A DNA stretch of 64,000 bases, taken from contig NZ_CP095187.1 of NCBI RefSeq assembly GCF_022965755.1, positions 1,736,001 to 1,800,000 on the forward strand, written 5' to 3'. Under the pieces are notes generated by a model. The model did not search any database, had not been told where the DNA came from, and saw nothing but the letters and a program-made list of their open reading frames with translations. Of the stretch, positions 47,851 through 63,960 are shown piece by piece. The translations under genes were made by a program, and so were the position numbers. This DNA is from Pseudoxanthomonas sp. F37 (GTDB taxonomy: Bacteria; Pseudomonadota; Gammaproteobacteria; Xanthomonadales; Xanthomonadaceae). How positions within the stretch are numbered: position 1 is the first letter of the stretch; each line of letters opens with the position of its first letter.

Positions 47851-50106
47851 TCAGAACTCCTGCCAGTCGCCCTCGGCGAAGGCGGGTTCGGGCTTGCGCG
47901 CGGCTGGCTTGCGCACGCTGGCAGCCGGTGCGGGCGACGCCTTGGCCGGCCGTGGCGCAGGCGTCGTCGGCCGCGCATGAGCGCCGGTCCTGGCCCGGGC
48001 CTCCAGCTTGAACACCGCCACCGACTCGGCCAGCGCCTGCGCCTGCTCTTCCATGCTGCGTGCGGCGGCGGTGGCTTCTTCCACCAGCGCGGCGTTCTGC
48101 TGGGTGGTCTCGTCCATCTGCACGATGGTCTGGTTGACCTGCTCGATGCCGGCCGACTGCTCCTGTGAGGCAGCGGAGATCTCGGCCATGATGTCGGTCA
48201 CGCGCTGCACGCTGGCCACGATCTCGCCCATGGTGGCGCCGGCCTGGTGCACCAGCGCCGAACCATCGGCCACCTTGTTCACCGAGGTTTCGATCAGGTC
48301 CTTGATCTCCTTGGCGGCGTTGGCGCTGCGCTGGGCCAGCGTGCGTACCTCGGAAGCCACCACCGCGAAGCCGCGGCCCTGCTCGCCGGCACGCGCGGCT
48401 TCCACCGCCGCGTTCAGCGCCAGGATGTTGGTCTGGAAGGCGATGCCGTCGATGACCGAGATGATCTCGGCGATCTTCTTGGACGACTGTTCGATGTCGG
48501 TCATCGTGGTGACCACCTTGCCGACCACTTCGCCGCCCTGGGAAGCGACGCCTGCGGCGCCCTGGGCCAGCTGGTTGGCCTGGCGGGCGCTTTCCGCGTT
48601 CTGGCGCACGGTGGAGGTCAGTTCCTCCATGGAGGCGGCGGTTTCTTCCAGGTTGGCGGCCTGCTGCTCGGTACGGCGCGACAGGTCGCTGTTGCCGCTG
48701 GCGATCTCGCCGGCGGCGGTATTGATGCTGGTGGAGGCGTCCTGGATGCGGCCGACGATGTCGGTCAACTGGCTGACGGTGGCGTTGGCGTCGTCGCGCA
48801 TGCGGGCGAACACGCCATGGAAGTCGCCTTCCATGCGCGCGGTCAGGTCGCCGTCGGCGATGGCGCGCAGCAGGGCGGACAGTTCGGCCAGATTGCGGTC
48901 GCTGGTGGCCATCATCGCGTTGAGGCCCTGCACCATGTGCAGGAAATCGTGGCGGAAGCCGGCCTCGTCGCCGCGGGCGGTGAAGTCGCCGGCGGCGGCG
49001 GCGGCGGCCAGGCGCCTGATCTCGCCGTTGATCGCCAGCAGGCTGGTCTTGGCCGCATCCATGGCTTCATGCAGGAAGGCGCGCGTACCCGGCAGGCGGC
49101 GGGCGTCCTGGCTCAGGTCGCCGCTGGCGTAGCGCTCCAGGATGCCGATCGCATCGCGGAAGGCATCCAGGTGTTCGAACATCATGGTGTTGATGCCGCC
49201 GGCCAGTTCGCCATACACGCCCGGGAAATCCTCCGGCATGCGATGGCTGATGTCCTCGGCGGCGTGCAGGCGGATCATGTCGCGCGTTTCATGAGAGAAG
49301 CGCTCCAGCATGTGCACCATCTCGTCGGTGGCCTTCAGCATCTGGCCGACCTCATCCCGTCCATGGTGGCCGGTGCGCACGCTCAGGTCGCCGCGGGAAA
49401 CGCCCTTGATGGCGGCCAGCGCGCGCGAGACCGGTTCCAGCACCGACTGGCCGATCACCCAGCCGATCGCCATGCTCAGCAGCACCAGCAGGCCGCCGGC
49501 GATGGTCATGATGAAGGTGAACTGCAGCGCCTGGGCCTGGGTGTCGTCGACGTAGACGCCGGTGCCGATCACCCAGCCCCAGGGCTGGTACAGCACGGCA
49601 TACGAGGTCTTCGGCACGGGGTCCTCTTCGCCGGCCTTGGCCCAGCTGTAGTCGACGTGGCCGCCGCCGGCCTGCGCCGCGCGGACGAACTCGGGGAAGA
49701 TGCGCTTGCCGTCCGGGCTCAGTACATCGTCCAGCGGCTTGCCGATCAGGTCGGGGCGGGTGGGGTGCATCAGCATGGTCGGGACTTCGTCGGTCACGAA
49801 GAAGTAGTCCACGCCCTTGTTGGCCTGCATGGTGGACAGCGTGGCCAGCGCGCGCGCCTTGGCCTGGTCCTCGTCCAGCTCGCCGCGCTTGACTTGGTCG
49901 GCGTAGCCCTCGATCACGCCCAGCGCCATCTCGGTCTGGGCTTTCAGTCCTTCCTGCCGCGTGCCGGTCAGGTCCAGGTACTGCATGCGTGCGGCGACGA
50001 CGGCCAGCGCGATGGTGCCCAGGGCGACCAGTGCCGTCTGGATCAGGAACTTGCGCTTGAGGGGGAGGTGGGACAGGGAGTGGGCGAGGCGGGCATTGAC
50101 GTTCAT
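47851..50106 (-). CDS. Methyl-accepting chemotaxis protein with single Cache sensor (MCP2)
   Basis: A 751-residue receptor. TM1 is about 20-42; the periplasmic sCache_2 domain (about 45-195) has [20 protein letters not shown] and [19 protein letters not shown]2 is about 198-222, followed by HAMP. The signalling hairpin is nearly identical to the other large receptors here. It ends EGDWQEF, the tethering pentapeptide. sCache_2 domains often bind small organic acids; the ligand here is unknown. Its 3' coding region (48001-48697) is identical in DNA to 58977-59673 in MCP4. It has a sigma28 promoter at 50177. Confidence 0.93.
48001..48697. repeat. 697-bp direct repeat, copy 1 (within MCP2)
   Basis: By eye this stretch is identical to 58977-59673, including synonymous positions at which the other receptors differ. 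It covers the signalling hairpin. Separation is 10,976 bp in the same orientation. Confidence 0.85.
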
Positions 50107-50176
50107 GCGGAGATCTCTGGCGACGGGCGCGGTACGTGGGCGTTCGGGATGCGGGAGCCGATGGCCCTCCCGATCG

Positions 50177-50203
50177 ATATCGGCCTGTGTCGGCGGAATT
50201 TCA
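50177..50203 (-). promoter_or_regulatory. Sigma28 promoter for MCP2
   Basis: On the minus strand TGAA, 15 bases, GCCGATAT, 71 bp before the start at 50106. Confidence 0.75.
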
Positions 50204-50266
50204 GGGCATCCGGCGCTTCTTCGACGAAAGGCGGATGGGCCTGCCGGGCGGCGCGCGCAAAACGAA

Positions 50267-50296
50267 GGGACCGCGGGCCTTGCGGCCGGCGGTCCC
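50267..50296 (-). terminator. Terminator-like hairpin after cheW
   Basis: GGGACCGC pairs with GCGGTCCC, with a further CCGG-rich inner stem. On the minus strand it is followed by TTCGTTTT. It lies 27 bases after the cheW stop. Confidence 0.7.
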
Positions 50297-50322
50297 GGGG
50301 CACGCTGATCGCAGGGCGGGCG

Positions 50323-50811
50323 TCAGGCCGCGACCTGCTCCGGCAGCGGCTGGCCGAAATCGGCGCTGTCGATCAGCGTTTCGATATCCAGCAGGATCAG
50401 CATGCGGTCGTCCACGGTGCCGATGCCCGAAATGAAGCGGGTGTCGACGCTGGCGCCGAATTCGGGCGTGGGCCGGATCTGTTCGGCATTGAGCGCGATC
50501 ACGTCGGACACGCTGTCCACCACGATGCCGACCACGCGGTCCTCCACGTTCAGCACGATCATCACGGTGAAGGCGTCGTAGCGGGCCTCCTTCAGGCGCA
50601 GCTTCAGGCGCAGGTCGATGACCGGCACGATGGTGCCGCGCAGGTTGATGACGCCCTTGATGTAGTCGGGGGCGTCGGGCAGGCGGGTGACCGAGTCGTA
50701 GCCGCGGATTTCCTGGACTTTCAGGATGTCAACGCCGTAGTGCTCTTCTCCCAGGGTGAAGCTGAGGAACTCGTCCGCGCTCGCTGCGGCCTGTGTCTTC
50801 TTGTCGCTCAT
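50323..50811 (-). CDS. cheW: Chemotaxis coupling protein CheW
   Basis: A 162-residue CheW. It has FTLGEEHYGVDILKVQEIRG, the RLPDAPDYIKGVINLRGTIV segment and VVDSVSDVIAL, all diagnostic. It bridges chemoreceptors and CheA at the membrane array. It is flanked by receptors MCP3 upstream and MCP2 downstream, and has its own sigma28 promoter and a downstream terminator-like hairpin. Confidence 0.96.
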   Translation of the reverse strand: MSDKKTQAAASADEFLSFTLGEEHYGVDILKVQEIRGYDSVTRLPDAPDYIKGVINLRGTIVPVIDLRLKLRLKEARYDAFTVMIVLNVEDRVVGIVVDSVSDVIALNAEQIRPTPEFGASVDTRFISGIGTVDDRMLILLDIETLIDSADFGQPLPEQVAA

Positions 50812-50875
50812 TGGTCGGGCTCCTGTGGCAGCCGGAATGGGGCAGGGGTTCCCGGGGCGGAACCGGTCTAGGCCT

Positions 50876-50902
50876 AGATCGGCCCCGGGCGGGGTTTCTT
50901 TA
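50876..50902 (-). promoter_or_regulatory. Sigma28 promoter for cheW
   Basis: On the minus strand TAAA, 15 bases, GCCGATCT, 65 bp before the cheW start. The -35 abuts the MCP3 stop codon at 50906. Confidence 0.82.
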
Positions 50903-50905
50903 GGG

Positions 50906-53611
50906 TCAGTAGGGACGGGCTTCGGACAGGGCGCGCGGCGATGCCGCCGAGGTGATGCGGGTCACGCGCTCCTGCACCAGCCGGGCCACGTGTCCATGCT
51001 CGCCCAGCCGGAAGGTGGCCACGGCCTGGCTCAGCGCCTGGGCCTGCTCTTCCATGCTGCGTGCGGCGGCGGTGGCTTCCTCCACCAGCGCGGCATTCTG
51101 CTGGGTGGCTTCGTCCATCTGGGTGATGGTCTGGTTGACCTGCTCGATGCCGGCCGACTGCTCCTGCGAGGCGGCCGAGATCTCGGCCATGATGTCGGTC
51201 ACGCGCTGCACGCTGGCCACGATCTCGCCCATGGTGGCGCCGGCCTGGTGCACCAGCGCCGAGCCGTCGGCCACCTTGTCCACCGAGGTCTCGATCAGGC
51301 CCTTGATCTCCTTGGCGGCGTTGGCCGAGCGCTGGGCGAGGGTACGCACTTCCGAGGCCACCACCGCGAAGCCGCGGCCCTGCTCGCCGGCACGGGCGGC
51401 TTCCACCGCCGCATTGAGCGCCAGGATGTTGGTCTGGAAGGCGATGCCGTCGATGACCGAGATGATCTCGGCGATCTTCCTGGACGACTGTTCGATGTCG
51501 GTCATCGTGGTGACCACCTTGCCGACCACTTCGCCGCCCTGGGAAGCGACGCCTGCGGCGCCCTGGGCCAGCTGGTTGGCCTGGCGGGCGCTTTCCGCGT
51601 TCTGGCGCACGGTGGAGGTCAGTTCCTCCATGGAGGCGGCGGTTTCTTCCAGGTTGGCGGCCTGCTGCTCGGTACGGCGCGACAGGTCGCTGTTGCCGGA
51701 AGCGATTTCGCCGGCGGCGGTATTGATGCTGGTGGAGGCGTCCTGGATGCGGCCGACGATGTCGGTCAGCTGGCTGACCGTGGCGTTGGCGTCGTCGCGC
51801 ATGCGGGCGAATACGCCATGGAAGTCGCCTTCCATGCGTGCGGTCAGATCGCCGCGAGACAGCGATTGCAGCACGCCCGAGACCGCGTCCACGCTGCCGG
51901 CGATCGTCGCCAGCAGGCCATTGAGCTGCTGCGACAGCGCCAGCAGGAAACCCTGCTTGCCGGTTTCGGCGATGCGGCCGCTCAGGTCGCCCTGTGCCGC
52001 GGCCTGGACGATGCGGGTGACCTCCTGCTCGACCATCACCTCGGCGGTGCGGTCGGCCCATTCCACCACGTAGCCGATGCGCTGGCCGTCGCCGTCCGTC
52101 ACCGGGTTGATGATCAGCTGCATGACGCGGCCGCCCACGTGGATCTGCGCGCGATGCGTGCCCTGCAACTGCGACAGGATGCGCGACTGGTGCTCGGGCT
52201 TCTTGTGGAAGACGTCGATGCTGTTGCCCACCAGGGTGCGCACGTCGAAGGCCGGCAGGTCGCGCCGCAGGTCCTGTTCGGCGTCGGTCAGCATCTTCAT
52301 CAGCGGCCGGTTGGCGTAGACGATGGTGCGGTCGGCGTCGGCGATCATGACGTTGGTGGTCACTTCCTCCAGCGCGGTGCGGATGCGCAGGCTTTCGCGC
52401 GCGACGACCTGGTCGCGCTCGATGCGCTCGCGCAGGGTGGCCTGCATGCTGCGCAGAGCCTTCATCAGCGTGCCGACCTCGTCGTCGCGGCCCACGCCGA
52501 TCTCGCTGTCCAGCTTGCCGGCGGCGATGTCGTCGGCCACGCGCACCGCGCCCGCCAGCGGAACGCTGACCTGGCGACGCAGCAGCCAGAACACCGCGCC
52601 GCACAGCAGCGCCGCGCCCAGCGCGCCCACGGCCACCACGGTCCACAGCACGGCGCGGGCTTCACGCATCAGCACCGCGCGCGGCACCACCACGCCCAGG
52701 GCGAACCGCTCCGCCGCCGTGCCGATCCGCAGCGGCACGTAAGCCTCGACCATCGCCTCGCCCGAGGCGTCCGGCACCTCGCGGAATACCGGCTTGTCGG
52801 CCGCGATCTGCTTCAGCAGCGCGGCCGCCCCGGGATCGGCGAACGGCTTGCCCAGCGATGCCTTGTCGTGATCGGCGATCACCACGCCCGCGGGGGTCAA
52901 CAGGCGGACGAAGCCGGCCTCCATCGGGGTGAGCCTGGCAATGCGTTCCTGCAGCGATTGCAGGGCGAAGTCCACGGTCATCACACCGACGTATCGGTCG
53001 CCGTCCAGGATGGGCGTGGACAGCGTGGTCATCAGCACGTCCTTGCCGGCGATCTTGTAGACGTAGGGCTCGGCGACGACCTCGCGCTTGAGTTCGCGCG
53101 GACGCAGGTACCAGTCGCCCGCGCCGGGCACCTCGTAATCGCGCAGGGCTTCCAGCAGCGGCGCACCGTCGCTCCAGGCCCAATAGCTCATGAAGCGGCC
53201 CGTGTCGTCGTGGCCCTCGCTCGATAGGTGCTGCGCATCCTGGCCGTCGAAGGCGTCGGGTTCCCACAGGGTTCCGACGCCCACCCATTCGGGGTGCGCC
53301 TCCAGCTGGCGCCTGATGACGGCACTGGCGGCGGCGCGGCTGACGCCGTCGCCGGCGCGCTGGGCCAGCAGCGCGTGCGCCAGGGCCTGGTTGCCGTCGA
53401 AGGCGCGCCCGAGTTCGCCGGAAATGCGCTGTGCCTCCAGGCTGGCCAGCCCCTCCATGGTGGCGCGCGCGCCCGTCAACAGGGCCTGGCTGCTGCGCAG
53501 GTAGCTGGCCGCGGCAGCCACGCCGAATGCCAGCAGCGCGACCAGGGCGATGCCGTACATCACCCGCGTGGCGATGCTGCGGGAAGATGAGCGGGGAAGA
53601 GCGGATGACAT
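50906..53611 (-). CDS. Methyl-accepting chemotaxis protein with dCache and PAS domains (MCP3)
   Basis: A 901-residue receptor, the longest here. TM1 is about 14-34; a double-Cache periplasmic domain (about 40-315) has [19 protein letters not shown] and [19 protein letters not shown]-like segments; TM2 is about 317-341. HAMP is followed by a cytoplasmic PAS domain (about 410-520, with [20 protein letters not shown]) and the usual signalling hairpin. It ends ALSEARPY and lacks the WQEF pentapeptide, so it may be methylated with help from tailed receptors. dCache domains often bind amino acids. A sigma28 promoter is at 53709. Confidence 0.92.
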
Positions 53612-53708
53612 GGCGGCCTCGTGCAGGTTGAGCGATACGGCGGTAACGCCTGCAGGCAGGGAGACCGCTGGCGGCGGTCACGCCCGTGTTGCAGGAGTGT
53701 TACGCCGT

Positions 53709-53735
53709 ATATCGGCGGGCGTGCGGCCAGGTTGA
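53709..53735 (-). promoter_or_regulatory. Sigma28 promoter for MCP3
   Basis: On the minus strand TCAA, 15 bases, GCCGATAT, 98 bp before the start at 53611. Confidence 0.75.
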
Positions 53736-53784
53736 GTGCGAAGACGTGCGATACGGAGGGCGGCGGCGCGAAACCCGACGCGGA

Positions 53785-54564
53785 TCACGCAGCGCCACGT
53801 TCGCGGGCGCTGCGCTGGCGTTCCAGGCGGAAGATGTAGCGCTGGATCAGCGCATCGGCCCCGCGCGGCAGGTCGGTGAACTGGCAGCCGGCGCGCCAGC
53901 TTTCGGTGCCGTTCTGGTTGAGCTGGCTGTGCAGGCTCTTCACCATCAGGCGCACGCTCAGGGGGCCGCTGTCGGGCAGGTGCAGCAGGCAGTCCGGGAA
54001 TTCGCGGTACGGCCGCAGCGTGGGGTTTTCCGCCTGGACCGCCAGGGCGATGCCGCCGCCGCTGATGTCGAGCACGCGGTAGCGCTCATAGGTGGTTTCG
54101 CCATCGGGGTGGTGCTGGGGAATGGCGCACTCCAGCGGTTGGGTCACCGGGACCTGCAGCCGGTAGTACTCGCGCCGCTGCAGGCGCAGCAGGGTCTCGG
54201 GCAGGTCGGCGCGGAAGGCGACCTGTCCTTCGTGGCGCAGGCGTACCAGCCCCTGCAGGCGGAACTGCACGTGGATGCGGTCCAGCCGGGAGACGCAGGT
54301 GACGTGGCTGGCGTCCTCGATGCTGCGATTGATGGCCTCGCTGGCGCTGCCGTCGATCAGGACGGCGTCTTCATCGTCCAGGACTTCGACGATGGAGGTC
54401 GGAAAGGTGTGGTTGCGCGGCATCGCGCAGCCGCTCACCAGGGCGCGTCGCTCGATCAGCGCCTGCAGGATGCGCCGGATCTCATGTCCATTGCGCACCA
54501 GGTACTTCTCCTCGTCCTCGTACCGGATCGGCTCGGCCAGGGGGGAGTCGGTGGGCTCGGTCAT
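53785..54564 (-). CDS. ycgR: Flagellar brake protein YcgR (YcgR-N, PilZ)
   Basis: A 259-residue protein. The N-terminal YcgR domain (about 20-125) precedes a PilZ domain (about 128-240) with the c-di-GMP motifs RREYYR (RxxxR) and DISGGGIAL (D/NxSxxG). When loaded with c-di-GMP, YcgR binds the flagellar motor and slows swimming. The gene has a sigma28 promoter at 54611-54637, like the chemoreceptors, so brake and motor are made together. It is followed on the minus strand by MCP3. Confidence 0.92.
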   Translation of the reverse strand: MTEPTDSPLAEPIRYEDEEKYLVRNGHEIRRILQALIERRALVSGCAMPRNHTFPTSIVEVLDDEDAVLIDGSASEAINRSIEDASHVTCVSRLDRIHVQFRLQGLVRLRHEGQVAFRADLPETLLRLQRREYYRLQVPVTQPLECAIPQHHPDGETTYERYRVLDISGGGIALAVQAENPTLRPYREFPDCLLHLPDSGPLSVRLMVKSLHSQLNQNGTESWRAGCQFTDLPRGADALIQRYIFRLERQRSARERGAA

Positions 54565-54610
54565 ACGGTCGGCGATGGGGCAGCAGGCCCGGCGGAAGGC
54601 GTCACAGGCT

Positions 54611-54637
54611 GTATCGGCGTGCGTCGCATGATCTTTA
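54611..54637 (-). promoter_or_regulatory. Sigma28 promoter for ycgR
   Basis: On the minus strand TAAA, 15 bases, GCCGATAC, 46 bp before the ycgR start. Confidence 0.85.
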
Positions 54638-54670
54638 GCGACGGCACGACGCCCCTCCGGTGGCGCCGTT

Positions 54671-55333
54671 TCAACGCTTGGCGTAGCCGATCCAGGAGAA
54701 CAGCGGACGGCCGAGCAGCAGGCAGGCCAGCGACAGCACGACCACGGCGCCCATGTGCCAGAGCAGTACCATCAGCGCGGTCTCGCCGCCGTGGTAGAGG
54801 CTCACGCCGGCGGCCGACAGGGCCGCGGCGCTCAGGGCCACCAGCATCGCCGTCTGCGCGGGGCGGACGACCCCTGCATGGCGCACCATGACCAGCATCA
54901 GCAGGCCCAGCGGGATGCTGGTCATGGTGATCGCCACCGTGCATTCGGAACTGACGAGTTCCACCAGGAAGGCGTCCGCGCCCAGGCGCGCACGGTCGTG
55001 CAGACAGCCCCAGCCCAGGCCGCCGAGCCACAACAGCAGGGGGGGCAACGGCAACCACATCCATCGCAGCGAGCGTCCCGGCACGCTGATCTGGAACACC
55101 GCGTATGCGGCCGTCAGTCCGGTCAGGACGCTGGCGATCCATTCGACCAGCACCGGCGGTCTGGACAGCTCCGCGGCCAGGCCGGCGCGCACGCCGTAGA
55201 CCCATACGATCATGCCGATCATGACCGCCGCCAGCGCCGACCAGGCCAGCGTCCTGCGCAGCGGCGAGGTCAGCGGGCGCACCGGTTCGGCGCGCGCGGC
55301 CAGCTGATCGATCAGGTGGCGGGTCTCAGTCAC
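54671..55333 (-). CDS. nrsF: NrsF-type membrane anti-sigma factor (DUF1109)
   Basis: A 220-residue protein with about six hydrophobic segments and a short cytoplasmic N-terminus (TETRHLIDQLAARAEPVRPL), the layout of NrsF/DUF1109. Members hold an ECF sigma factor at the membrane until copper or other stress. Two Cys (in GLGWGCLHDR and VSSECTVAI) fall in places where NrsF uses conserved Cys for sensing. The GTG start at 55333 has GGGGAAG before it and overlaps the sigma gene stop by eight bases. It is the last gene of the bufferin operon. Confidence 0.88.
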   Translation of the reverse strand: MTETRHLIDQLAARAEPVRPLTSPLRRTLAWSALAAVMIGMIVWVYGVRAGLAAELSRPPVLVEWIASVLTGLTAAYAVFQISVPGRSLRWMWLPLPPLLLWLGGLGWGCLHDRARLGADAFLVELVSSECTVAITMTSIPLGLLMLVMVRHAGVVRPAQTAMLVALSAAALSAAGVSLYHGGETALMVLLWHMGAVVVLSLACLLLGRPLFSWIGYAKR

Positions 55334-55988
55334 GGTCTTCCCCTTTGCCCAGCACATGCTGGAGCGATTTCAGCGCCCGGTGGCAGGCGACCTTCAAGGC
55401 GCTCACGCTCTGGCGGCTCTCGGCCGAGGCTTCGTTCAACGACATGTCCTTCAGGTGCACCAGTTCGATGGCCTGCTGCTGGCGGGGCGAAAGCTGTGCC
55501 ACGGCCGCGCGCACCTCGCGCGCCGCCTGCCGGCGGGCGGCGGCCTCCTCCGGGCCCGCGTTCGCATCGTCCACGCGGTCGAGCGGTTCGTCGGTGAGGA
55601 CTTCGTGTTCGATCCGTCGCGCGCGCCGGCGCAGCACATCGATGCAGCGACGCGTGGCGATGGTACCCAGCCAGGGCTTGAACGGACGACCCGGCTCGTA
55701 GGTGTGACGGACGCCGTGAACGATCAGCAGGATGTCCTGCACCGCGTCCTCGGCATCTTCGCGCGCGCCCAGGTAGCGGCGGGCGATGGCGCGCAGGTAG
55801 GGAACGATGGCGCTGAGCAATGCGTGGTAGGCCACGGTGTCGCCGGACTGCGCGCGCGCCATCCAGGCACCCCATGCATCGTCATCGCCCGGGGGCGCGC
55901 CGGAGAGTCCATCGGGTACCTGCTCGCGATGCAGGGGCATGTCCGCGGCTGCGTCCGGCACGGGAAAGGGAAGGAGAGTGGCCATCAT
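55326..55988 (-). CDS. sigF: ECF sigma factor (SigF-like, NrsF-controlled)
   Basis: A 220-residue ECF sigma factor. Region 2 (about 62-130) has YLGAREDAEDAVQDILLIVH and PFKPWLGTIATRRCIDVLRR; region 4 (about 160-215) has LSPRQQQAIELVHLKDMSL and ALKVACHRALKSL. The first ~50 residues are an extra low-complexity extension. Paired with NrsF directly downstream, it matches the SigF-NrsF systems described in Caulobacter for heavy-metal response. The promoter at 58641 fits the SigF consensus, so it should drive its own operon. Starts at 55988 or 55985 are both possible (Met-Met). Confidence 0.88.
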   Translation of the reverse strand: MMATLLPFPVPDAAADMPLHREQVPDGLSGAPPGDDDAWGAWMARAQSGDTVAYHALLSAIVPYLRAIARRYLGAREDAEDAVQDILLIVHGVRHTYEPGRPFKPWLGTIATRRCIDVLRRRARRIEHEVLTDEPLDRVDDANAGPEEAAARRQAAREVRAAVAQLSPRQQQAIELVHLKDMSLNEASAESRQSVSALKVACHRALKSLQHVLGKGEDRD

Positions 55989-56013
55989 GCGGTGCCCCTG
56001 CGTGGCTGCCAAG

Positions 56014-56550
56014 TCACCGGCCCTGCGTGCCGACGCGCGCCAGCAAGGCATCCAGCGAGATCGTGCCGGGCCCGCGCGCCATCAGGTACAGCAATGCCAC
56101 CGCCCACAGGCCATGGGTCGGAAAGGCGTCGGGGTAGACGAACACCTGGATGACCAGCGTCATGACCAGCAGCGCCAGCGCCGAGAGCCGGCTGGCAAGC
56201 CCGGCCAGCAGCAGGACGGGGAACACGTGTTCGGCCACGGCCGCCATGCGCGCGGCGAACTCGGGCGCAAGCAGGGGCAGCGCGTACTCGCTGCGGAAGA
56301 GTTCCAGTGCGTTGTCCGACAGGCGTGGAATGCCCAGTTCGAACGCGCCGCGGAGGGGATCGACCACCAAGCCTTCGATCTTGGTCTGTCCCGACTGCCA
56401 GAAGGTCATCGCCACGGACACGCGGGCCAGCACGGCGACCAGATCGTGCGGGATGCGCCCGAAACATGCCGTCATGCGGTTCGCGTACCGTATCGGCAGA
56501 GGCGTGGAGGGGCGGGAAGGCGTAGGGATCGGTGTGGTCCGACTGTTCAC
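56014..56550 (-). CDS. DoxX-family membrane protein
   Basis: A 178-residue membrane protein with four hydrophobic helices, starting after an N-terminal stretch of ~30 hydrophilic residues. It has VAVLARVSVAMTFWQSGQTK and AEHVFPVLLLAGLASRLSAL, which fit DoxX. DoxX proteins are common in bufferin-type operons (as in hvf/buf loci), where a redox or electron-transfer role is suspected but not shown. The GTG at 56550 has GGAG seven bases before it and stands just after the bufC stop; ATG 56475 is an alternative. Confidence 0.83.
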   Translation of the reverse strand: MNSRTTPIPTPSRPSTPLPIRYANRMTACFGRIPHDLVAVLARVSVAMTFWQSGQTKIEGLVVDPLRGAFELGIPRLSDNALELFRSEYALPLLAPEFAARMAAVAEHVFPVLLLAGLASRLSALALLVMTLVIQVFVYPDAFPTHGLWAVALLYLMARGPGTISLDALLARVGTQGR

Positions 56551-56551
56551 A

Positions 56552-57348
56552 TCAGGGCTCCGGAAGAGGGTCGAGCGCCACGACAAGGCCGTGCGTCACC
56601 AGGACGGCGAACAGCGCGCCGTCGTCCAGCAGGGGAACCGCCAGCCGCGCCCGCTGGAACGCACGTCCCAGCGTGAGGCCATCGCGCAGGGCATCCAGCA
56701 GTTCCAGCGCGCCGGGTGGCAGGCGCTCCACCGCGACCTCCAAGCCGGGCCGCGCGACCAGCGTGTCCTCGGCGCGCGTGGCATCCACGTCCTCCAGCGC
56801 CGCGGCGGACGGATGGGCCAGGCCTTGGTGCGCCTGCCAGAGCGTGCACGCGGCATGCTGCGAACGGAACCACGTGCACGCGGGATGCAGCACCACACGC
56901 GTGCGATGAAACCGCGATGGATCCGCCAGCAGCGCGTGGTAGGCCGCGTGCGGAAGGGGCGCCGCATCGGCGGCGTGGTAGGCCTGGATCCGCCGGGCTT
57001 CGATCTGCGCCACGTCCGCCAGATAGGGAACGCTGGCGGCCGGCGCGAATGCGGCGATGAAGTCCGGCAGGCCCAGGGCGTAGTCGATGAGCATGGGCGA
57101 ACGGGGGGATCGGCCAGCACGCGCTCACGTGCCATCGCGCGGAAAAAGGGCTCGCCCACGAGCGCCTGGCTGACCGGGAACGCGTCGGCCAGCGCATCGA
57201 CCAGGCTCACGATGAAGGTGTTGCGATGCACGGCCAGGCGCCGTTGGGCATCGTCGCCGCCCTGCGCGAAGTCTTCGCCGGCCACCGGCCGGGCGGGCGC
57301 CCGCAGCGCCGTCGCGAGGGTGTTGTAGACGCTGTCGTGTGCGCTCAT
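56552..57348 (-). pseudogene. bufC: BufC-like MNIO partner protein (DUF2063), apparently frameshifted
   Basis: The N-terminal DUF2063 part begins at ATG 57348 (SAHDSVYNTLATALRAPARP, then HRNTFIVSLVDALADAFP and FRAMARERVLADPP) and loses frame at a six-base G run (57104-57109; C on the coding strand). The C-terminal part resumes in another frame as MLIDYALGLPDFIAAFAPA to the stop at 56552. Restoring one C gives ADPPRSPMLIDYALGLPDF, an uninterrupted ~265-residue protein as expected. DUF2063 proteins deliver the precursor peptide to the MNIO enzyme. As read the gene is broken, but sequencing error is quite possible because all partner genes look intact. Confidence 0.85.
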
Positions 57349-58241
57349 GCCGCGGCCTTCGCGCATGCCGCCGCGTCGATCGAGACCTGCGCCCGGGTGG
57401 CCTGTTCGCGCAGCCGCGCATAGGGCGGAACGTGGGTATCCCATTCGATCAGGGTCGGCACCGGCCCGGTCCGCGCCAGCACCTGGCGGAACAGCGCCCA
57501 GACGGCCTCGTCCACCGGCGCGCCATGGTCGTCGATCAGCAGGGGCTCGCCGTGGATGCCCCCATCCCGGGCATGGCCGGCCAGATGGATCTCGTGCACG
57601 GCGTGCAACGGCATCGCCTCCAGGTAGGCCTGGGGATCGCGGCGATGGTTGTGGCACGAGACATGAACGTTGTTCACGTCCAGCAACAGGGCGCAGCCGG
57701 TGCGCTGGACGATGGCCGCGATGAACTCGGGCTCGCTGTACGTGCCGTGGGCGAACTCGAGATAGGTGCTGGGGTTCTCCAGCAGCAGGCGCAGCCCCAA
57801 CCGTTCCTGCACCTGGTCGATGTGCCGGCACACGCGCGCCAGGCTGGCCGCGTCGTAGCGCAGCGGCAGCAGGTCGTTGAAGAAGCGGCCGTTATGGGTC
57901 GACCACGCAAGATGCTCGGAGAACACCGCCGGACGGTAGCGCGCGACCAGCGTCTCCAGGCGGGCGAGGTGGGCGGGGTCGAGCGGGCCTGCGCCGCCCA
58001 GGGACAGACCGACCCCGTGCAGGGAGAGCGGCAGGCGCTCGCGCAGCGTCGACAGCATGTGGTGCGGCGCGCCGCCCGCACCCATGTAGTTTTCCGCATG
58101 CACCTCGATGAAGGCAGGTGGGTGCGCATCGCTCATCAGGTCCGCGAAGTGCACCGGCTTGAACCCGATGCCGGCCTGCGCGGGCAGGCAGGCATCGGCC
58201 GTCCCGCAACCGGTACCCGGGGCGTGGCAGCGAACGTGCAC
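57345..58241 (-). CDS. bufB: MNIO family RiPP-modifying enzyme BufB (DUF692)
   Basis: A 298-residue TIM-barrel protein of the DUF692 multinuclear non-heme iron oxidase family. Motifs in order are GIGFKPVHFADLM, IEVHAENYMG, LSLHGVGLSLGGA, FSEHLAWS, LLLENPSTYL, LLLDVNNVHVSCHNH, IHLAGHARDGGI and LIEWDTHVP, with the His, Glu, Asp and Asn metal ligands visible. These enzymes oxidise Cys residues of a precursor peptide to copper-binding heterocycles. The GTG start at 58241 is 13 bases after the bufA stop; homology begins near GIGFKP. It overlaps bufC by four bases. Confidence 0.92.
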   Translation of the reverse strand: MHVRCHAPGTGCGTADACLPAQAGIGFKPVHFADLMSDAHPPAFIEVHAENYMGAGGAPHHMLSTLRERLPLSLHGVGLSLGGAGPLDPAHLARLETLVARYRPAVFSEHLAWSTHNGRFFNDLLPLRYDAASLARVCRHIDQVQERLGLRLLLENPSTYLEFAHGTYSEPEFIAAIVQRTGCALLLDVNNVHVSCHNHRRDPQAYLEAMPLHAVHEIHLAGHARDGGIHGEPLLIDDHGAPVDEAVWALFRQVLARTGPVPTLIEWDTHVPPYARLREQATRAQVSIDAAACAKAAA

Positions 58242-58254
58242 GGCTGCGGGCCGA

Positions 58255-58578
58255 TCAGCCGGCCTTGGCGGGCTTGGGCTTGAACTCGGCCAGCTGGCCG
58301 AAGCCGGTGGGCGAGGTCTTGGAAGCGGTCTTGGTGCAGGTGCCGGCGGGCACGTACTTCCACGCATTGGCCTGGTGGTCGCTCTTGGACGTTCCGGCAC
58401 AGGTGGTTCCGGGGCCTGCGGCGCAGTCGTTCTTGCCCGCCATGGCAATGCCGAAGCAGCGTTCCTTGGCGGCGCCCTTCTCGGCGGCGGACGCGGGGGC
58501 GGAGCCTGCGGCCAGGACCGAACCGAGAGCGGCGGCCAGGGCAAGGGCGGGTACGGCGGACGAGCGGCGGATCGACAT
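58255..58578 (-). CDS. bufA: Bufferin-type RiPP precursor BufA1 (DUF2282)
   Basis: A 107-residue exported precursor peptide. The signal peptide spans about 1-32 (ending APASAA). The mature part has four Cys at residues 41, 52, 60 and 81, in [31 protein letters not shown] and VPAGTCTKT, which is the DUF2282/BufA1 pattern. In characterised bufferins the Cys are modified by the MNIO enzyme to bind copper in the periplasm. AGGAGA lies six bases before the ATG. It heads the operon and follows a GTAACC-N16-CGAA promoter. Confidence 0.92.
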
Positions 58579-58640
58579 GGGACGTCTCCTGTTGGCGGGA
58601 TGGAGGGCGGGCACCGTGCCGGCCGCTCTCACAGGAAGAC

Positions 58641-58666
58641 TTCGTCGCGATGGTGGAAAAGGTTAC
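58641..58666 (-). promoter_or_regulatory. SigF-type ECF promoter of the bufferin operon
   Basis: On the minus strand GTAACC, 16 bases, CGAA, 62 bp upstream of bufA. This is the form described for SigF-NrsF regulons in Caulobacter. It ties the ECF sigma factor at the end of the operon to its start. Confidence 0.8.
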
Positions 58667-58778
58667 GTCTGCCGCCCATCGGCGCAGGTGTTCCGCCCCG
58701 GTCGTCGCACCCCACGGGGTCGCGGTCCGGTCGGGACGGAGGCGTCAGCGGCCCGGTCGGGACGGAGGCATCGAACGC

Positions 58779-58805
58779 GCACGGCCCGGATCGACCGGGC
58801 CGTGC
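58779..58805 (-). terminator. Hairpin after MCP4
   Basis: A perfect 11-bp stem (GCACGGCCCGG / CCGGGCCGTGC) with a five-base loop, 27 bases after the MCP4 stop. There is no clear T-run, so termination strength is uncertain. Confidence 0.6.
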
Positions 58806-58832
58806 GTGGACTGCATGTCGCAACCGCAGGGC

Positions 58833-61475
58833 TCAGGACGCCTGCCAGTCGCCCTCGGCGAGGGCCGGTTCCGGCTTGCGTGCGACCGGCTTGCGGACCA
58901 CGACCTTGGGCGTGAACACGGCACGCGGGGCAATCGCGGCGGCGGCAGGCTTGCGCACCGGGGCACTCATCGTGGCCTCCAGCTTGAACACCGCCACCGA
59001 CTCGGCCAGCGCCTGCGCCTGCTCTTCCATGCTGCGTGCGGCGGCGGTGGCTTCTTCCACCAGCGCGGCGTTCTGCTGGGTGGTCTCGTCCATCTGCACG
59101 ATGGTCTGGTTGACCTGCTCGATGCCGGCCGACTGCTCCTGTGAGGCAGCGGAGATCTCGGCCATGATGTCGGTCACGCGCTGCACGCTGGCCACGATCT
59201 CGCCCATGGTGGCGCCGGCCTGGTGCACCAGCGCCGAACCATCGGCCACCTTGTTCACCGAGGTTTCGATCAGGTCCTTGATCTCCTTGGCGGCGTTGGC
59301 GCTGCGCTGGGCCAGCGTGCGTACCTCGGAAGCCACCACCGCGAAGCCGCGGCCCTGCTCGCCGGCACGCGCGGCTTCCACCGCCGCGTTCAGCGCCAGG
59401 ATGTTGGTCTGGAAGGCGATGCCGTCGATGACCGAGATGATCTCGGCGATCTTCTTGGACGACTGTTCGATGTCGGTCATCGTGGTGACCACCTTGCCGA
59501 CCACTTCGCCGCCCTGGGAAGCGACGCCTGCGGCGCCCTGGGCCAGCTGGTTGGCCTGGCGGGCGCTTTCCGCGTTCTGGCGCACGGTGGAGGTCAGTTC
59601 CTCCATGGAGGCGGCGGTTTCTTCCAGGTTGGCGGCCTGCTGCTCGGTACGGCGCGACAGGTCGCTGTTGCCGGAAGCGATTTCGCCGGCGGCGGTATTG
59701 ATGCTGGTGGAGGCATCCTGGATGCGGCCGACGATGTCGGTCAGCTGGCTGACCGTGGCGTTGGCGTCGTCGCGCATGCGGGCGAATACGCCATGGAAGT
59801 CGCCTTCCATGCGTGCGGTCAGATCGCCGCGGGCGATGGCCTGCAGCAGTTCCGAGACTTCGGCCAGGTTGCCGTCGGTGGTTTCCATCAGCTGGTTCAG
59901 GCCGTCGATCATGTCGCGGAAATCGTACTGGTACCTGTCCACGTCGCCGCGCTGGCTGAAGTCGCCCGAGGAGGCCGCCATCGCCAGGCGCTTGATCTCG
60001 CCGTTGATCGCGGAAAGGCTGGCTTTGGTGGCATCCATCGTCTGCGTGAGCACGGCCTTTTCGCCGGGCAGGCGGTCCATGTCGATGGACAGGTCGCCGA
60101 CGGCGTAGCGCTGCATCACCTCCACCAGGCGCAGCTTGACCGCGATGTGCGAGGCGACCAGTGCGTTGGTCGCACGCACCATGGTTCCGTACTCGCCAGG
60201 GAACGCGCTGTCGTCGATGCGGTAGCTGATCGTGCCTTCGTCGTGCTGCCGTGTCATCTCGGTCTGTGCGCCGATGACCGACACGACCTGCGTCTGCACG
60301 CGCTGCATGGCCGACAGCAGCTGGCCGATCTCGTCGTGGCGGTGGGTGTCGATCCTGCCATCCAGCTTGCCCGCCGCCACGTGTTCGGCGATGCCGACGG
60401 CGGCACGCAGGGGATGCGACACCCCCCTGCGCACGCCGATCCATGTCAGGCCGGCGATGACCAGGAGGGCGAGCGAAGACAGCGCGAGGATGCTGACCGT
60501 CAATGCATGGCTGGAAGCCAGCACCGTGGAGCGCGGCTCCACGGCCACCAGCGCCCACTTCCATGGGGCGAAGCGCTTGACGGCAACGAGGGCAGGTTCG
60601 GCGGTCTGGCCTGCCTTGGGCGCGATGTCGAGCACCGCATGCCCATGCTCCTGTTCGAGCAGGCCTTTCATCGCAGGTTGCGAGCCGGCACCGACCACGG
60701 CGGTGTAGGGCGACTCCTGGCTGGCCGGGTGCGCGGCGAGCATGCCGTGGCGGTCGCCTTCGGCGAGGTCGACGACGAAGAAATAGCCCGCTTCGCCCAG
60801 ATGCGTATTGCGCAGCTGGTCCTTCAGCGCGGCCAGGCCGTCGCCGTAGTCCTGGCCCACGAACAGGATGCCGACGGTCCTGCCTTCGGCATCGGTCAGC
60901 GGCTCATAGTGGGTCATGTAGTCGCGGCCGAACAGGCGTGCGCGGCCCGTGTACGGCTTGTCCTCCAGGATGAGCGCATAGGCCGGGTGCTTGTGGTCCA
61001 GGGCCGTGCCGATGACGCGCTCGTTTTCGCTGTTGCGCAGCGAGGTGGTGGCGCGGATGAACTCGTCGTCCTTGCGCACGAACAGCGTGGCGACCACCTC
61101 GGTCGCTTCGGTGAAGCGGTCCACGCCGGAGAAATCGAGGTTGACGACATGATCGCCGAACCGGAGCTCGGGAACGTCCGTTTCGCCGATCAGCGTCGTG
61201 CGTGCGGGGTCTACGGACACATCGCCCTGCGGCAATGACGCGCGGAAGCTGTCCGCCATGCGCTGGGTCCCTTCGGTGAGGGTGCGGTCGTACAGGGAGA
61301 CGGACTCCAGCATCACCTGCGCGGCGACGTCCAGGTCGGCCAGCGCGCGGTCCTGGATGGCGCGGCTGGACTGGCGCTGGACCACGAAGGCCAGCAGGAG
61401 CAGGACGACGGCGACGGCGACGGTGACCTGGAGCGAGAGCTTACTGCCGAGCGAAAGGCGCGAGAGTCGGTTCAT
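58833..61475 (-). CDS. Methyl-accepting chemotaxis protein with Cache_3-Cache_2 sensor (MCP4), mosaic gene
   Basis: An 880-residue receptor. TM1 is about 14-33; the large periplasmic domain (about 36-320) is of the Cache_3-Cache_2 kind, with RTVGILFVGQDYG and EAGYFFVVDLAEGDRHGML; TM2 is about 328-350, followed by HAMP and the [19 protein letters not shown] linker. The signalling domain is a mosaic of stretches matching MCP2, MCP3 and MCP1. It ends EGDWQAS instead of WQEF, so the last aromatic residue of the tethering pentapeptide is missing. A sigma28-like promoter is at 61509. Confidence 0.93.
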   Translation of the reverse strand: MNRLSRLSLGSKLSLQVTVAVAVVLLLLAFVVQRQSSRAIQDRALADLDVAAQVMLESVSLYDRTLTEGTQRMADSFRASLPQGDVSVDPARTTLIGETDVPELRFGDHVVNLDFSGVDRFTEATEVVATLFVRKDDEFIRATTSLRNSENERVIGTALDHKHPAYALILEDKPYTGRARLFGRDYMTHYEPLTDAEGRTVGILFVGQDYGDGLAALKDQLRNTHLGEAGYFFVVDLAEGDRHGMLAAHPASQESPYTAVVGAGSQPAMKGLLEQEHGHAVLDIAPKAGQTAEPALVAVKRFAPWKWALVAVEPRSTVLASSHALTVSILALSSLALLVIAGLTWIGVRRGVSHPLRAAVGIAEHVAAGKLDGRIDTHRHDEIGQLLSAMQRVQTQVVSVIGAQTEMTRQHDEGTISYRIDDSAFPGEYGTMVRATNALVASHIAVKLRLVEVMQRYAVGDLSIDMDRLPGEKAVLTQTMDATKASLSAINGEIKRLAMAASSGDFSQRGDVDRYQYDFRDMIDGLNQLMETTDGNLAEVSELLQAIARGDLTARMEGDFHGVFARMRDDANATVSQLTDIVGRIQDASTSINTAAGEIASGNSDLSRRTEQQAANLEETAASMEELTSTVRQNAESARQANQLAQGAAGVASQGGEVVGKVVTTMTDIEQSSKKIAEIISVIDGIAFQTNILALNAAVEAARAGEQGRGFAVVASEVRTLAQRSANAAKEIKDLIETSVNKVADGSALVHQAGATMGEIVASVQRVTDIMAEISAASQEQSAGIEQVNQTIVQMDETTQQNAALVEEATAAARSMEEQAQALAESVAVFKLEATMSAPVRKPAAAAIAPRAVFTPKVVVRKPVARKPEPALAEGDWQAS
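58977..59673. repeat. 697-bp direct repeat, copy 2 (within MCP4)
   Basis: By eye identical to 48001-48697 in MCP2. Recombination between the two copies would delete about 11 kb holding cheW, MCP3, ycgR and the bufferin operon. Confidence 0.85.
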
Positions 61476-61508
61476 GAGGTCGGGGGCTGGGCTGGGGTAT
61501 CGAAAGCG

Positions 61509-61535
61509 ATATCGGCGTCACACCACCGCGATTAA
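61509..61535 (-). promoter_or_regulatory. Sigma28 promoter for MCP4
   Basis: On the minus strand TTAA, 15 bases, GCCGATAT, 34 bp before the start at 61475. Confidence 0.75.
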
Positions 61536-61602
61536 GTACATGAACTTACTTGCCCGACGAGCGGTAGGGGCCGCCCTGTCGGGCAGCGGCGCCAGTGGGA
61601 CG

Positions 61603-61630
61603 AAAAACGGCCCGGAAGTCCGGGCCGTTT
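61603..61630 (-). terminator. Intrinsic terminator of MCP5
   Basis: On the minus strand AAACGGCCCGG pairs with CCGGGCCGTTT around a four-base loop and runs into TTTTT. It lies 28 bases after the MCP5 stop. Confidence 0.88.
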
Positions 61631-61657
61631 GCTTGCTGCCGACGGAGGCTTGTCGGC

Positions 61658-63868
61658 TCAGAACTCCTGCCAATCCCCGTCGGCGAGAGCCGGCTCGGGC
61701 TTGCGCGCGGCGGGCTTGCGGACCACGGCCTTGGGCACGGTCGTCTTCGGTGCGGCCGGCTCGGCGATGACGCGCCGGAGGGGGGCACTCACCGTGGCCT
61801 GCAGCTTGAACACGGCAACGGACTCGGTCAGCGTCTGCGCCTGCTCTTCCATGCTGCGTGCGGCAGCGGTGGCTTCCTCCACCAGCGCGGCATTCTGCTG
61901 GGTGGCTTCGTCCATCTGGGTGATGGTCTGGTTGACCTGTTCGATGCCGGCCGACTGCTCCTGCGAGGCAGCCGAGATCTCGGCCATGATGTCGGTCACG
62001 CGCTGCACGCTGGCCACGATCTCGCCCATGGTGGCGCCGGCCTGGTGCACCAGCGCCGAGCCATCGGCCACCTTGTTCACCGAGGTCTCGATCAGGTCCT
62101 TGATCTCCTTGGCGGCGTTGGCCGAGCGCTGGGCGAGGGTACGCACTTCCGAGGCCACCACCGCGAAGCCGCGGCCCTGCTCGCCGGCACGGGCGGCTTC
62201 CACCGCCGCATTGAGCGCCAGGATGTTGGTCTGGAAGGCGATGCCGTCGATGACCGAGATGATCTCGGCGATCTTCCTGGACGACTGTTCGATGTCGGTC
62301 ATCGTGGTGACCACCTTGCCGACCACCTCGCCGCCCTGGGAGGCGACGCCTGCGGCGCCCTGGGCCAGCTGGTTGGCCTGGCGGGCGCTTTCCGCGTTCT
62401 GGCGCACGGTGGAGGTCAGTTCCTCCATGGAGGCGGCGGTTTCTTCCAGGTTGGCGGCCTGCTGCTCGGTACGGCGCGACAGGTCGCCGTTGCCGGCGGC
62501 GATCTCGCCAGCGGCCGTGTTGATGCTCTGCGCAGCCATCTGGATGCCGCCGACGATCTCGGTCAGCTGGCTGACCGTGGCGTTGGCATCGTCGCGCATG
62601 CGGGCGAACACGCCATGGAAGTCGCCTTCCATGCGCGCGGTCAGGTCGCCGCGGGCGATGGCCTGCAGCAGTTCCGAGACTTCGGCCAGGTTGCCGTCGG
62701 TGGTCTCCATCAGCTGGTTCAGGCCACCGATCATGTCGCGGAAATCGTACTGGTACTTGTCCACGTCGCCGCGCTGGCTGAAGTCGCCGGACGCGGCTGC
62801 GGCCGCCAGCCGTTTGATCTCGACGTTGATGGCCGACAGGTTGGCCTTGGTCACGTCCATGGCCTGCGTCAGCTTGGCCTTCTCGCCGGGCAGGCGATCC
62901 ATGTCGATGGACAGGTCGCCGATCGCGTAGCGCTGCATCACTTCCACCAGGCGCAGCTTCACCGCGATGTGCGAGGCGACCAGCGCGTTGGTGTCGCGCA
63001 CCATGCGGCCGTACTCGCCGGGGAACGCGCTGTCGTCCATGCGGTAGCTGATTTCGCCGACATCGTGGCGCTGCGCCATTTCGCTCTGGGCCGCGATGAC
63101 CGACTTAACCTGTGTCTGCATGCGCTGCATGGAGCTGAGCAGGTCGCCGAGCTCGCTGCGGTCATCGACCGTGATCTGGCGATCCAGCTGACCCCGCGCC
63201 ACCGCGTCGGCGACGCTCATGACGTCGGTCATCGGCCGCACGATCGAGCGCGTGATGAGGACCGCAGCTGCGATGGCCAGCAGCATCGCCACCACCACCA
63301 GCAGCCCGATGGCCTTGATGTTGGTGCTGTAGCCAGCCTCCTGCGCAGCCACAGCGTTGTCCAGCACCTTCATTTTCGCATCCAGCATCCGCGCGACGGC
63401 ATCGGCGGTGGCCTGGCGCAAGTCGGCGGCACCACTGGCAGGCGTCAGATCGCCGACCTTGACCGACTCGATCAGGCGGCGGCTGTTCTCGAAGTACAGC
63501 GCGGATCTTGCCATCATCTCCTGGTGCAGGGCCCGGTCCTGTTGGTCGGAAAGGCCGCGTCCATACGCCTTGGACAGCTCGTCGAAGGCCTTGCCGCCCG
63601 CGATCAGCTCCTCGGTGTACTCGGCGACCTTTTCCGGGTCCTCGTAGCTGGCGACAAGGCCGCGCTCGCTGACGCGGTACTCGGCCAGCATCGTGGCCAT
63701 GCGCCCGAGATCGCGGATGGCCGGTACTTCCTTCTTCGTGATGTCGAGCACCACGTCCTGGGCCACGCCCATCCGCTGTGCGGAGAACGCCCCGGTGGCG
63801 ACGATGAGCAGGACGAGCACGGCGAAGCCGATGGCCAGGCGCTTGCCGATCTTGAGGTGCTTGAACAT
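61658..63868 (-). CDS. Methyl-accepting chemotaxis protein with four-helix-bundle sensor (MCP5)
   Basis: A 736-residue receptor. TM1 is about 10-30; a helical periplasmic domain (about 32-185) contains [20 protein letters not shown], typical of 4HB_MCP; TM2 is about 187-209, followed by HAMP (about 210-265) and [19 protein letters not shown]. The signalling hairpin matches the other receptors and most closely MCP3 in DNA. It ends DGDWQEF, an intact tethering pentapeptide. ATG 63868 starts just before the first membrane helix; the upstream ATG at 63934 adds 22 residues with no role. A sigma28 promoter is at 63961. Confidence 0.93.
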
Positions 63869-63960
63869 GAAGGCGGTCTCGATGGAGTTCAGTGGGTGGA
63901 GCTGGTGCATGACCCGGAAGCAGTGGCGGTCCATGCCCTTGGTGCGATATCTGTTCCGGA

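Follow-up and report, generated by a model that had tools for sequence, protein, structure and literature searches.

Bufferins are peptides in which cysteine-derived thiooxazoles hold periplasmic copper, BufB being the modifying enzyme and BufC its partner, and clusters of the Buf1 (DUF2282) type have already been published with genes for a sigma factor and NrsF (PMC12452194; statements taken from this and every other article cited here refer to the accessible part of its text). Related peptides were reported to be copper-binding thiooxazole metallophores (PMC13097082). In Caulobacter crescentus, NrsF restrains the sigma factor SigF, which acts at a GTAACC-N16-CGAA promoter and controls genes of this kind (PMC3511200); the SigF regulon is copper-inducible, and mutation of sigF makes the bacterium sensitive to copper (PMC8224329). 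Here, we analysed a locus within a 64,000-nt stretch of the Pseudoxanthomonas sp. F37 genome (contig NZ_CP095187.1, forward-strand positions 1,736,001 to 1,800,000; hereafter the window, to which all coordinates refer). We consider it about 85% probable that this locus is a bufferin operon of the Buf1 type, controlled by a SigF-NrsF pair of its own.

The locus occupies 58666 to 54671 on the minus strand, in the order promoter element, bufA, bufB, bufC, doxX, an extracytoplasmic function (ECF) sigma factor gene and nrsF, and every gene was supported by a Pfam match scoring above the cut-off, which for bufC covered the N half only. The features were as follows.

58641..58666, minus strand: SigF-type promoter element GTAACC-N16-CGAA (exact match; kept 5' of bufA in relatives)
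58255..58578, minus strand: bufA, DUF2282 (Buf1) bufferin precursor, 107 aa (PF10048, 84.1 bits)
57345..58241, minus strand: bufB, MNIO enzyme, 298 aa, GTG start (PF05114, MbnB_TglH_ChrH, 341.4 bits)
57085..57348, minus strand: N-terminal half of bufC with the DUF2063 domain; reading frame lost towards its end (PF09836, 59.8 bits, profile 5-71 of 83; frame -2)
56552..57106, minus strand: C-terminal half of bufC, called RRE-type from its position only (frame -1; 87% identity to P. mexicana BufC 82-264)
56014..56550, minus strand: doxX, probable GTG start at 56550 (PF07681, 57.4 bits; translation from 56550)
55326..55988, minus strand: sigF-like ECF sigma factor gene, 220 aa (PF04542, Sigma70_r2, 59.7 bits; PF08281, Sigma70_r4_2, 32.4 bits)
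54671..55333, minus strand: nrsF, membrane anti-sigma factor gene, GTG start (PF06532, 116.2 bits, profile 1-204 of 204)

An earlier reading made from the letters and their open reading frames (the sequence-only reading) had given the same gene order, strand and coordinates, and had assigned the locus to bufferins and to SigF-NrsF; the open reading frames and the Pfam families bore out both. The features of a Buf1 cluster were found, namely a DUF2282 precursor with four cysteines, an adjoining MNIO gene and DUF2063 partner DNA after the MNIO gene, as were those of a SigF-NrsF (DUF1109) system, namely an ECF sigma factor gene adjoining an NrsF-family gene and the GTAACC-N16-CGAA promoter. The four BufA cysteines, also named in the sequence-only reading, lay at positions 41, 52, 60 and 81 of a protein with a Sec-type signal sequence (judged by eye), and four cysteines were likewise seen by eye in 14/14 printed relatives. 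A total of 30 H, D, E, N, C, Y, K or R residues of BufB were invariant across 15 sequences, while Cys110 and Cys131 of NrsF were invariant in 18/18 sequences and aligned in all six further sequences from Rhizobium, Nitrobacter, Cupriavidus and Methylobacterium.

By coordinates, bufA and bufB are separated by 13 nt, bufB and bufC overlap by 4 nt, doxX and sigF are 25 nt apart and sigF overlaps nrsF by 8 nt; the gap between bufC and doxX is 1 nt, provided that doxX starts at the GTG at 56550. The spacing therefore lies between an overlap of 8 nt and a gap of 25 nt, and together with the conserved motif it makes it a fair inference that the genes would form a single autoregulated operon.

Compared to published Buf1 clusters (PMC12452194), the locus shares the four-cysteine BufA with a signal sequence, the MNIO enzyme BufB, the DUF2063 protein BufC, DoxX, and the sigma factor and NrsF genes. 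It differs in that bufC is frame-broken, and in that the six genes share a strand and follow a single promoter element. We rejected the idea that this layout is unusual, since 11 of 20 regions fetched from relatives carry all six genes on one strand and a Rhizobium plasmid does so with one extra gene; for the same reason, the six-gene unit described in the sequence-only reading is not peculiar to this genome. The plasmid, pT136c of Rhizobium sp. T136, resembles the window in carrying DUF2282, DUF692, DUF2063, DoxX, sigma factor and DUF1109 genes in the same one-strand order, and is different in its extra gene before the DUF2063 gene, its one-frame partner gene and its alphaproteobacterial host. 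The C. crescentus system (PMC3511200, PMC8224329) shares the ECF sigma factor, the DUF1109 membrane anti-sigma factor, the promoter motif and SigF targets with DUF2282, DUF692, DUF2063 and DoxX; there, SigF controls three transcription units and a promoter was mapped 5' of sigF, whereas the genome analysed here holds three exact motif sites, only one of which (that upstream of bufA) precedes a recognised target. The gold- and copper-responsive GIG operon of Cupriavidus and Legionella, for which DUF692, DUF2063 and DoxX are named (PMC5413113), was likened to the locus by description only.

The promoter element consists of GTAACC at 58666-58661, a 16-nt spacer and CGAA at 58644-58641, and stands 62 nt 5' of the bufA ATG at 58578, exactly as the sequence-only reading had placed it. 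Its exact motif matched three times in the 3.97-Mb genome, this site included, compared to one match for a reversed control pattern, which corresponds to a rate of about 1e-4 per 250-nt stretch. When conservation was scored with the pattern GTAAC[CT], a spacer of N15/16 and CGAA, the element was found 5' of bufA in 12/12 loci (window included) and in 17/18 once further loci were added. Among five loci with a sigF-nrsF pair but without the full buf set, four carried the pattern within 300 nt before sigF on the same strand; L058 gave no such match on that strand over the same distance, and the duplicate of that locus (L122) gave one match on the opposite strand. Because the pattern also matches other places in several of the further loci, its presence alone in a 12-kb locus means little and its position 5' of bufA or sigF is what counts. 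Similarly, three one-mismatch matches in the window compared with a chance mean of 1.0, and 8 of 100 shuffles reached three, so that only the exact match was given weight. The loose pattern GTAACC-N15-17-CG was useless (228 matches, cf. 387 when the control pattern was reversed), no match was obtained with the GTAACT variant, and a promoter and terminator scan returned nothing useful. A wider SigF regulon in this genome was unsupported, as the other two exact sites (L072 and L073) had no recognised target among frames that were read by eye, with no family search made.

By analogy with the SigF-NrsF and bufferin systems published elsewhere, NrsF in the inner membrane would hold the sigma factor until metal stress, probably from copper, acts on the two conserved NrsF cysteines and frees it. 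The freed sigma factor would then start transcription at the GTAACC-N16-CGAA element and raise bufA, bufB, bufC and doxX together with its own gene and that of NrsF. BufB with BufC would convert the two central BufA cysteines to thiooxazoles, and BufA, exported through Sec, would be expected to hold copper in the periplasm.

Several observations weigh against this account. Caulobacter sigma-F was described as not strongly autoregulated under metal stress, and the metals of that study were chromate and cadmium (PMC3511200). The key cysteines of Caulobacter NrsF are numbered 131 and 181, a spacing of 50 (PMC3511200), while the conserved pair here stands at 110 and 131, a spacing of 21; on these numbers, the two pairs cannot be equated. 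The sole miss among the 18 loci was that on the Rhizobium plasmid (L098), where the promoter pattern had no match in 10,582 bases. Finally, the broken bufC of the operon as sequenced argues against a working unit.

The break in bufC was located with the intact BufC of Pseudoxanthomonas mexicana, of which residues 2-88 aligned to the window in frame -2 and residues 82-264 in frame -1, placing the change of frame at about 57085-57106, in a run of C. Thus bufC is two halves in different frames and not a single open frame, and the partner gene of the working Buf1 form, a single two-domain open frame, is absent from this sequence; a Pfam search with the C half alone gave no match. Both halves lay in the same frame in 16/16 distinct related loci in which both were found (10 and 6 in two locus sets), a count that excludes L069, where tblastn recovered only the C half, and from which duplicates were dropped (L108 = L066, L110 = L064 and L118 = L069). 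Consequently, we make no claim that the sequence, as given, encodes a working bufferin pathway; the peptide of this copy would be modified poorly or not at all, unless the break stems from an error in assembly. The sequence-only reading, which had missed the split, had described a self-contained operon of six genes; five of them are open frames, but with bufC broken the locus is not self-contained as the sequence stands.

Of the 56 coding segments that a codon-usage scan retained in the window, only two lost their coding signal at least 200 nt before the stop: bufC and a gene, named histidine-kinase-like by eye, that ends near 2380. At the latter (595-2619), the end of the gene is one base off in frame compared with 8/8 relatives, so that the usual stop is lost and the frame enters the next, response-regulator-like gene. 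This second one-base frame difference within 64 kb makes an assembly error plausible, and we slightly favour the explanation that the bufC break arose in assembly or sequencing and that the operon of the living strain is intact and ordinary. The position of the break in a C run, its uniqueness, shared by the lesion near 2380, among the relatives compared, and the open frames and family matches of the other five operon genes are consistent with this, although near 2380 more than one letter separates the window from its relatives, as would also fit a real change, and the genome is a single contig with a tabulated completeness of 100%.

Somewhat short of even odds, in our estimate, is a real mutation that marks the onset of decay of the operon in this strain, with a second MNIO locus, at another place in the genome, remaining whole. 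That second locus (L054) has an MNIO gene and a DUF2063 gene in open frames, and loss within the same operon is evident in Lysobacter sp. M2-1 (L059), where the promoter and an apparent remnant of bufA are kept and bufB, bufC and doxX were not matched. Set against decay are the five other open genes and the lack of any second lesion found in the operon. We regard it as very improbable that the break is both real and reversible, with slippage in the C run toggling the partner protein on and off so that a sub-population would export unmodified BufA under metal stress.

The nearest named relative was P. mexicana DSM 17121 (NrsF 94% identical), in agreement with the gammaproteobacterial host proposed from sequence. 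NrsF was matched in 5 of 38 genus genomes, the strain's own included, a count that takes in the distant G036 (30% identity, one internal stop), which was not treated as a carrier; MNIO genes were found in 32 of the 38. Across the family sample, NrsF was matched in 28/395 genomes (in 24 at E <1e-40), and the 28 include weak matches in G131, G156 and G193. Besides those with the full one-strand set, the 20 fetched regions comprised five with a sigF-nrsF pair but an incomplete set, one cut by a contig end, one with doxX-sigF-nrsF and a distant MNIO gene, one that was distant, and the strain's own second MNIO locus. On plasmids, NrsF matched in 69 records and BufB in 351, all below 60% identity, and on a conjugative plasmid of Nitrobacter the buf genes are opposite to the sigma factor pair.

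In L059 (8678-10258; the same place as L114), the promoter is followed by what by eye appears to be a remnant of the bufA signal sequence, and then by sigF-nrsF. A sigF-nrsF pair with the promoter element before sigF, and with no buf genes matched nearby, was seen in L067 (= L117), L068, L070 (= L111), L107, L113, L115 and L119, mostly from Lysobacter. The precursor encoded at the second MNIO locus of the strain itself (L054, 4905-6966) combines EGKCG repeats with EF hands, and the locus also encodes an MNIO enzyme and a DUF2063 partner in one frame.

The window locus is a member of the Buf1 bufferin clusters by descent only. The Pseudoxanthomonas locus thereby joins the sigma-controlled bufferin operons, with one promoter element and gene order recurring across the family. 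It also carries a caution, in that a reading of motifs and gene order can call an operon complete despite a broken partner gene in the given sequence.

The operon lies among chemotaxis genes, as first noted, with a chemoreceptor gene upstream and the YcgR-like pilZN downstream. A pilZN match was found in 24/38 genus genomes, and in flanks of up to 1500 nt, some of them ended by contig ends, nrsF stood beside pilZN only in the window and in P. mexicana. In five other genomes (L076-L079 and L082), about 150-260 nt separated the receptor gene from pilZN and contained no operon gene, and G028 and G013 carried the operon elsewhere, in flanks that resemble each other. These empty sites and displaced copies indicate that the operon was gained at this site, or moved to it, in an ancestor common to the window strain and P. 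mexicana.

The same distribution, with related clusters on plasmids, one of them conjugative, is what might be expected if the operon were a mobile cassette inserted between the chemoreceptor gene and pilZN, which we nevertheless consider doubtful. We saw no mobility gene within the operon or in the neighbouring genes read, where no search aimed at mobility families was made, and no direct repeat at both operon ends occurred among the 20 of 21 repeat families shown. Base make-up was ordinary (operon G+C 0.703, window 0.689), the plasmid matches never reach 60% identity, and identities among carriers run in parallel for NrsF (94, 84 and 82%) and pilZN (97, 79 and 78%), which also fits an old presence with losses and relocation. 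The description of the module as probably mobile is weakly supported by the empty sites, displaced copies and distant plasmid relatives, but mobility genes and element ends were not seen. A clear mobile element was unsupported.

Contigs shorter than 10 kb accounted for 8 of the 24 pilZN loci of the genus. Immediately before pilZN, at 54611-54637, we observed a sequence that resembles a flagellar sigma-28 promoter and recurs in the relatives with empty sites. The scan found no terminator between nrsF and this sequence, so that transcripts of the operon may read through. Two tandem 25-nt copies that are 92% alike lie at 58722-58772, between the chemoreceptor gene and the promoter element. Several long, closely similar chemoreceptor genes stand near each other at 47851-63934.

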